Origin: Candidatus Aminicenantota bacterium
Lineage (GTDB): Bacteria > Acidobacteriota > Aminicenantia > Aminicenantales > Saccharicenantaceae
Assembly: GCA_017999365.1 (NCBI GenBank)
Contig: JAGNLW010000004.1
Coordinates: forward strand, 62,001 to 126,000
DNA length: 64,000 bases
Reading direction: 5' to 3'
Position 1 is the stretch's first letter, and each line of letters opens with the position of its first letter. The translations under genes were made by a program, and so were the position numbers. Shown one piece after another: positions 6,728 to 52,133 of this stretch. Below the pieces are notes generated by a model. It was given only the letters and a program-made list of their open reading frames with translations, ran no database searches and was not told the DNA's origin.

Positions 6728-6731
<4 letters not shown>

Positions 6732-7909
6732 GCCGCCAGGCCGATCCCGCGGTGCTTGGACGCGATGGCCTCGACCAGCCGGTCGATCGCTTCGAGGTCG
6801 GCCGCCTTCGGTATGCCCTTGCAGATGACCGGGGGGATGATCTCGACCTTGAGGTTGGGTATGGCCCCCTTGACGGCGTCGACCATCCGGCTGCCCCAGC
6901 CGAAGGACCCGACGAACGAGGCGAAGCGGGCCTTGGGCCGTAGGGCGTTGGCCAGGACGACGGCGTCGAGGACGGCCGGGTGGGGCCCGACGTGGACGGT
7001 CGGGGCGGCCACGACGACCGTCGCCGCGTCGACCAGGGCCATGGCCAGCTGGCCGATGTCGGCCGTGGCCATGTTGAAGGGAAAGACGCTGACCCCCTTG
7101 GCGACCAGGCCGTCGACGAGGCGCCCGACCAGGATCGCCGTCGAGCCGTGCATGGTCACCCAGGGGATGACGACGCTGTTGTGGGGCATGTCGTCGGTCC
7201 AATCGCGGTAGGCCTGGACGATGGTCGCGGGATCGCGGTGGATGGGGCCGTGGCTCGGGGCGATCATGCGGATGTCGAGGTCCTTGATCTTGTCCAGGTT
7301 CTTCTGGACGATCTTGCGGAAGGGCATCATGATCTCGGCGTAGTAGCGCTTGGCCTCGGCCAGGATGCAGTCGGAGCAGTCGGCGAACAGGTCCGTCTGG
7401 GCGACGTGGGCCCCGAACCAGTCGCAGCTGAACAGGATGCGGTCCTCCTCGAGATAGGTCGACATCGTCTCCGGCCAGTGGACCCAGGGCGTGTAGACGA
7501 ACCGGAGGGTCTTGCCGCCGAGGGGCAGCCGCTCGCCGTCGGCGACGGCGCGGACGCGGGCGGGGTCGATCCCCAGGTGGTCGACGAGCATGGGCTTGGC
7601 CGGCTCGGAGGCCAGGACGACCGCGCCGGGATAGCGCTCGAGGAGCCAGGGGATGCCGCCCGAGTGGTCCTGCTCGGTGTGGTTGGAAACGATATAGTCG
7701 ATGCGCGGCACGTCCTCGAGGTAGGACCGCAGGACGGGCAGCATCTCGGGCTCGATGGAGTCGACCAGGGCGACCTTGTCGCGGCCGGTGACGAGATAGG
7801 AGTTATAGCTCGTCCCGTCGGGCAGGGGGATGAGGGCGTCGAAGAGCCGGCGGTCGAAGTCCGGGGCTCCGACGTAGTGGACATCGGGAACGATCTCGCG
7901 GGGTTTCAT
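6728..7909 (-). CDS. Flavodiiron protein (FprA family A-type flavoprotein)
   Basis: This 393-residue soluble enzyme reduces O2 to water and/or NO to N2O in anaerobes. The N-terminal metallo-beta-lactamase-like domain (about 1-250) carries the diiron ligands: H-x-E-x-DH in SNHTEQDHSGG, a later His/Asp pair around VHWPETMST and FSCDWFG, and His in APSHGPIH. The C-terminal ~140 residues form a flavodoxin domain that binds FMN. AAGGAGAG lies 7-8 bases before the ATG. The upstream region holds a predicted promoter whose -10 overlaps a 15-bp motif shared exactly with the Rrf2 regulator gene at 44.9 kb. I see no rubredoxin domain, so an external electron donor is needed. Confidence 0.95.
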
Positions 7910-7937: not shown

Positions 7938-7978
7938 TAATTCCTATCAATTCTATAGTAATTGAGCCGAAAAATAAA
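7938..7978 (-). promoter_or_regulatory. Predicted promoter and Rrf2-type operator of the flavodiiron gene
   Basis: On the minus strand TTTATT (7978-7973) and TAGAAT (7955-7950) are 17 bases apart. The 15-bp sequence TAATTCCTATCAATT (plus-strand 7938-7952) overlaps the -10. The same 15 bases occur, with no mismatch, at 44859-44873 upstream of the Rrf2-family gene. The AT-rich run stands out strongly from the GC-rich surroundings. The factor and its effect are inferred. Confidence 0.55.
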
Positions 7979-44854: not shown

Positions 44855-44906
44855 TTGATAATTCCTATCAATTTGAGTTGATATTGGGGGAAAAGCCGTA
44901 TAGAAT
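44855..44906 (+). promoter_or_regulatory. Rrf2 gene promoter with triple half-site operator
   Basis: Half-sites alternate as TTGATA (44855-44860), five bases, TATCAA (44866-44871), six bases, TTGATA (44878-44883), giving two overlapping inverted repeats. The last half-site is also a -35, with TAGAAT at 44901-44906 after 17 bases. TAATTCCTATCAATT (44859-44873) is shared exactly with the flavodiiron promoter. Autoregulation is inferred. The leader would be ~10 bases, with AGGAG at 44913-44917. Confidence 0.6.
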
Positions 44907-52069: not shown

Positions 52070-52099
52070 ATTATAGCATATTCATCAGTCTAGCATATT
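52070..52099 (-). promoter_or_regulatory. Copper operon promoter with a 9-bp direct repeat
   Basis: On the minus strand TATAAT occupies 52075-52070. Plus-strand TAGCATATT occurs at 52074-52082 and again at 52091-52099 (17-base period), covering the region just upstream of the -10 and the place where a -35 should be. No consensus -35 is present, consistent with activator or repressor control, possibly copper-responsive. Confidence 0.45.
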
Positions 52100-52133
52100 T
52101 CCTACTGTTATACTAGTGTATCCGGCCGCAGGG

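Follow-up and report, generated by a model that had tools for sequence, protein, structure and literature searches.

A conserved 23-bp inverted repeat at oxygen-defence promoters in Aminicenantia and its proposed Rrf2-family regulator

The same AT-rich 15-base sequence, TAATTCCTATCAATT, stands at two promoters about 37 kb apart in a 64,000-nucleotide stretch of Candidatus Aminicenantota DNA (the window). One copy lies at the gene of a flavodiiron protein (FDP) and the other ahead of the gene of an Rrf2-family regulator, here called Rrf2A. The question is whether the pair marks an operator of Rrf2A. The original prediction held that the pair is unlikely by chance and suggested that the regulator controls O2/NO detoxification and its own gene. 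As listed in Table 1, both copies were confirmed, and the window had no other site at up to 3 mismatches. The expected number of copies was 0.05, and 0 of 100 dinucleotide shuffles gave two. In the whole genome (a Ca. Aminicenantes MAG of the Acidobacteriota; 2.82 Mb, 7 contigs) the exact 15-mer was found at these two places only, and at up to 3 mismatches it was found at 13 places versus 0 for the reversed control.

The match could also be mere chance between two AT-rich promoters of a GC-rich genome. Both copies lie in AT-rich promoters, and several of the 3-mismatch places are repeats: L005, L009 and L010 have GGGGGACATGATACC in common, and L003 and L004 an identical stretch. Moreover, the exact 15 bases are not kept even in congeners, where the common part is the core (A)ATTCCTA. 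The exact identity is partly a coincidence of this species; what is conserved around the core is described below.

Two repeats of this genome were recorded on their own account. Identical segments of ~70 bp ending in AAATTCCTATCAAT occur at L003 (C1:48731) and L004 (C1:58402), 9.7 kb apart, and a dispersed repeat with GGGGGACATGATACCTATTTCC, or its counterpart GGGTATCATGTCCCCCAT, occurs at L005, L009, L010 and L294.

Table 1. Positions in the window of the two genes, their putative promoter elements and the proposed operator sequences.
Feature	Position	Strand	Basis
FDP (FDP/ROO-type, 393 aa), proposed repressed target	6728..7909	-	Pfam ODP 6e-25
15-mer, first copy; includes one operator arm	7938..7952	.	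exact match search
Full FDP operator ATTCCTA-TCAATTCTA-TAGTAAT	7940..7962	.	14/14 to relaxed half-site pair A[AT]T[AC]CTA-N9
Putative FDP -10 TAGAAT, inside operator	7950..7955	-	read from sequence; TATAAAAT-type -10 conserved in orthologs
Putative FDP -35 TTTATT, spacer 17 bp	7973..7978	-	read from sequence
15-mer, second copy, upstream of rrf2	44859..44873	.	exact match search
ATTCCTA half-site of rrf2 operator, second arm weak/different	44861..44867	+	WWWTCC[TG]AT in 30/30 family orthologs
Putative rrf2 -35 TTGATA, directly downstream of operator	44878..44883	+	read from sequence
Putative rrf2 -10 TAGAAT, spacer 17 bp	44901..44906	+	read from sequence
Rrf2-family regulator Rrf2A (149 aa), invariant C95-x6-C102-x5-C108	44924..45373	+	Pfam Rrf2 3e-31

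Profile and pattern searches led to the strict pattern AWTCCTA-N9-TAGGAWT. The model R1 was used solely to find new sites, because it recovers the two sites of this genome by construction. For scoring out of 14, the half-site was relaxed to A[AT]T[AC]CTA after some sites had been seen, which makes the scores mildly circular. When the window was scanned with the relaxed palindrome, the FDP operator reached 14/14 and the next best site 11/14; across the upstream regions of 99 ORFs in the window, more than 11/14 was found at the FDP site alone (counted for two nested starts). A weak palindrome, TTTCCTACTGTTATACTAGTGTA, at window positions 52098-52120 has 11/14, which is chance level. The 15-mer is not the functional unit: at FDP it is one arm, half of a conserved 23-bp inverted repeat.

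The FDP operator covers the putative -10 of the promoter, with which the 15-mer had been predicted to overlap and does. All 10 readable FDP promoters of the genus have TACTATAAAAT-N-AnTAGGAAT or a near variant at the -10. The palindrome overlaps this conserved -10 in part, which is a point against the preferred reading given below. FDP orthologs are present in most genomes of the family; with the NCBIfam flavorubredoxin models the protein gave 5e-62, below the cut-off.

Across 13 congeneric genomes the palindrome AWTMCTA-N9-TAGKAWT recurs at the genes of FDP, superoxide dismutase (SOD), a DUF438-hemerythrin-PAS protein and a YtkA-like protein; fewer of the genomes have it at a thioredoxin (Trx) gene. 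Within the genome of the window, the strict pattern at up to 1 mismatch gave three sites only, at FDP, SOD (Fe/Mn type, with a photolyase-family gene after it) and the YtkA-like gene. SOD promoters of the genus scored at least 11/14 in 11 of 12 genomes (shuffle means 7.5-8.1, maxima 9-11). YtkA-like promoters scored at least 12/14 in 8 of 11 genus genomes and in 4 of 6 of the sister genus. The hemerythrin-PAS promoters have a related palindrome, AAYACTACTAATTTNGTAGTATT, just upstream of an extended -10, with at least 12/14 in 11/11 genomes of the genus, and thioredoxin promoters reached that score in 5 of 12. It counts against the preferred reading that some congeners are without one or other target (Trx in 7/12, SOD in G007). 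Together the FDP, SOD, YtkA, hemerythrin and Trx sets comprise 47 CTA-N9-TAG sites with ~36 bits.

Two of these target genes were noted further. The YtkA-like operon (L216:146-3503, own C3) continues with two proteins without a Pfam match and a MacB/FtsX-type permease, and is putatively redox-linked. The DUF438-hemerythrin-PAS gene with its own operator (L292:794-1996, own C5:215093-216295) lies on the contig of the window, outside the window.

G020 and G024 of the sister genus each have rrf2 and FDP operators (TACTATTCCTATAGAATTATAGTA, TACTATTCCTATCGGAATATGGTA) that agree with one another at 20 of 24 positions (shuffle maximum 17), so that more than a single genome links the two promoters. 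Against the preferred reading, the dyad of these sister-genus sites differs from the genus palindrome. Relatives too have the motif ahead of rrf2 and FDP, and in palindromic form it stands ahead of the defence genes for SOD, hemerythrin-PAS and thioredoxin. A search of the genomes for scattering of the motif over unrelated positions, or for its lack of conservation upstream of orthologs, left the original prediction standing. Coincidence is therefore very improbable and largely refuted by the comparative data: many genomes conserve the half-site and the palindromes at orthologous promoters of a functionally coherent set of genes, rrf2 and FDP have near-identical operators in the sister genus, and the negative controls (Rrf2B promoters, described below, hemerythrin promoters outside the genus and the 99 ORF upstreams of the window) speak against it.

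The reach of the palindrome is narrower than that of the rrf2 footprint. The operator was absent from sister-genus SOD promoters, and none of 22 hemerythrin homologs outside the genus had a promoter site of at least 12/14, for which reason a hemerythrin operator in other families was rejected. Outside the family an operator was found at the rrf2 site only. Because these SOD and hemerythrin promoters are without the palindrome, target membership is largely a genus-level feature, though the rrf2 footprint is class-wide.

At up to 2 mismatches the strict pattern gave 104 matches in the genome of the window versus 61 for reversed controls, a modest excess. Candidate sites present in some genomes only, at the nuoA/SSF intergenic region and at the genes of a 192-aa secreted protein, FeoAB and an SQR-like protein, are treated as leads only because the reversed control is high at this threshold. 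Other matches were rejected: the AATTCCTGTCAATT site that precedes a PilB-like gene (L217, L222-L225) reads as an ordinary TTGACA-17-TAAGAT promoter without a palindrome, and the AATTCTTATAATTT matches in G005 and G011 are paired inverted repeats. In these two genomes many paired inverted AATTCTTATAATTT copies lie ~40-85 bp apart (e.g. G005:C2:11121/11174) and are MITE-like.

At rrf2 itself, a ATTCCTAT-type half-site abutting the -35 box was found in 30/30 family orthologs, where WWWTCC[TG]AT stands 64-96 bases ahead of the start codon. Among 80 rrf2 loci, nearly all from Aminicenantia, many promoters carry the footprint ATTYCTATAAAATTATGTTGAAA, and TTCCTAT is exact in 26. The -35, as TTGATA or TTGAAA, is kept in many orthologs. 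Read as a palindrome, the rrf2 site scores ~10/14, which is chance level, and its dyad differs from that of FDP. Inverted half-sites at Rrf2-type spacing were found at FDP, SOD, YtkA, hemerythrin and Trx, and the rrf2 site deviates. The case for autoregulation therefore rests on the conserved half-site: the part of the prediction that places a motif upstream of rrf2 holds, whereas only one arm is clear there.

The deviating rrf2 site also leaves room for another redox regulator (PerR/Fur-type, CRP/FNR-type or another Rrf2) that owns the palindromes and controls rrf2A as one of its targets. Such an arrangement would fit the lack of a full palindrome at rrf2 and the distance of rrf2A from the targets, and Rrf2A is the binder by inference. 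We nevertheless consider it improbable: the half-sites are spaced as in Rrf2 operators, and the ATTYCTAT footprint at rrf2A spans the class, farther than any tested target. The other Rrf2 proteins were compared as well. Rrf2B, the only other family-wide Rrf2, has an operator of its own, of the GACTWAGTC type; its 17 family promoters had 0 palindromes at 12 or more and instead carry TTGACA with GTTAAATGACTTAGTCTATTGACTTAGTCAACTAA or a relative, so that Rrf2B was rejected as the regulator of the palindrome. A third Rrf2 occurs in G000 and G015 only and is thus absent from nearly all family genomes. This argument covers Rrf2 proteins.

Both paralogs have features of their own. Behind TTGACA at Rrf2B (G000:C2:106861-107262, L229; also L311-L328), GTTAAATGACTTAGTCTATTGACTTAGTCAACTAA is strongly conserved and probably marks another regulon. 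The rare third Rrf2 (27% identity; G000:C4:812751-813604) adjoins a hemerythrin-like frame and is possibly NsrR-like.

Rrf2A belongs to the Rrf2 family (Pfam PF02082, 108.6 bits, cut-off 30), and its named relatives are from Candidatus Aminicenantes genomes. Its AF2 model (pLDDT 91.5) matches CymR, IscR, RsrR and NsrR structures. The cysteine loop seen in the original prediction is well conserved, with C95, C102 and C108 invariant across 37 aligned homologs, as expected of Fe-S Rrf2 proteins. With the curated NCBIfam models the scores were 108.8 bits for CymR (cut-off 195), 107.6 for IscR (cut-off 207.55) and 27.9 for NsrR (cut-off 182). The His ligand that follows the third cysteine of IscR is not fixed here (C-P-T-F in Rrf2A, F/Y/H across homologs), and in place of the Asp8 ligand of NsrR the homologs have an invariant G8. 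Because these cut-offs were missed, and Asp8 and a fixed IscR-like His are absent, Rrf2A is best called a putative Fe-S-type Rrf2 subfamily outside IscR, CymR and NsrR. That Rrf2A regulates these genes with a thiol switch or in response to a metabolite, like CymR or SifR, and not through an Fe-S cluster, is unlikely. In favour of this alternative, the closest solved folds are CymR and then T. potens IscR, and CymR gives the best NCBIfam score; against it stands the C-x6-C-x5-C in the cluster loop of 37/37 homologs.

Taken together, the preferred reading, to which we give a probability of about 0.7, is that Rrf2A represses O2/ROS/NO-defence genes and its own gene through the 23-bp operator, and that damage to a putative Fe-S cluster ends the repression. 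Rrf2A would be an IscR/CymR-like winged-helix repressor, probably with the cluster on its three cysteines, that binds AWTMCTA-N9-TAGKAWT set on core promoter elements. At FDP, SOD, YtkA and hemerythrin the operators lie on the -10 or spacer, and at rrf2 the site lies against the -35, so repression by occlusion is favoured. In a reduced, anoxic cell FDP, SOD, DUF438-hemerythrin-PAS, the YtkA-like operon, thioredoxin and rrf2A itself would be repressed; O2, superoxide or NO would damage the cluster and release repression, and scavenging of O2 and radicals would be induced when needed. As the targets remove O2, superoxide and perhaps NO, a repressor inactivated by oxidant damage to its cluster is the simplest model. 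NO as a signal is suggested by analogy only; in Desulfovibrio, NO induces a YtfE-like hemerythrin-PAS protein (PMC5701242). The original prediction is partly supported: its motif stands at promoters of O2/ROS/NO defence, while binding by Rrf2A, the cluster, the sign of regulation and the signal are inferred. A wider claim, possible but doubtful, gives Rrf2A an Fe-S Rrf2 subfamily of its own and makes it the main repressor of the O2/superoxide/NO response in this Aminicenantia genus; if true, one cluster-based sensor would do what OxyR/SoxR/PerR and NsrR do elsewhere. The proposed circuit is a concrete and testable one for oxygen defence in an uncultured, mostly anaerobic group, with a regulator, an operator and five or more target promoters, and as a search motif the operator ties the YtkA-like operon and the 192-aa secreted protein to redox stress.

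Among known systems, the CymR box contains ATNGGAATT, which resembles ATAGGAATT. CymR of B. subtilis and S. aureus is also the best fold and profile match to Rrf2A, but it controls cysteine metabolism and binds no Fe-S cluster (PMC9338935), and Rrf2A falls below its cut-off. The E. coli IscR type 2 site is xxWWWWCCxYAxxxxxxxTRxGGWWWWxx, i.e. CC-N13-GG (PMC4055776). With IscR our system shares the Rrf2 fold, the CC-N13-GG geometry flanked by A/T, the O2/redox theme and likely autoregulation, whereas Rrf2A lies below the IscR cut-off and outside an isc/suf operon, lacks the conserved His and has defence enzymes as targets. NsrR has a 23-bp operator and acts in NO/O2 defence, with enzymes of the hemerythrin and flavodiiron type among its targets (PMC9338935). 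The likeness is one of targets and of operator length; Rrf2A differs in its NsrR score (27.9 bits vs 182) and in the Gly that replaces the Asp8 ligand. HypR and SifR are likewise Rrf2 repressors of redox-stress genes with N9 between half-sites, but their sites are TGTAA-N9-TTACA (PMC9218516) and they sense through a single cysteine.

A search of the literature found nothing on Rrf2 with hemerythrin or SOD, nor on Rrf2 in Aminicenantes. The regulon is new and the regulator type is already known. Rrf2 control of FDP has a precedent in gut Clostridia: the available portion of a 2026 preprint (PMC13404960) proposes it for the Lachnospiraceae Rrf2 C0FN14, which adjoins FDP in the BOOR system. As described in that portion, C0FN14 is likewise a three-cysteine Rrf2, with Trx and rubrerythrin nearby; it differs in having Asp8 as in NsrR, no operator is defined for it there, and its genes are adjacent, whereas the regulon here is dispersed. 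To that extent, the circuit proposed here parallels the recent proposal of Rrf2 control over flavodiiron proteins in gut Clostridia.
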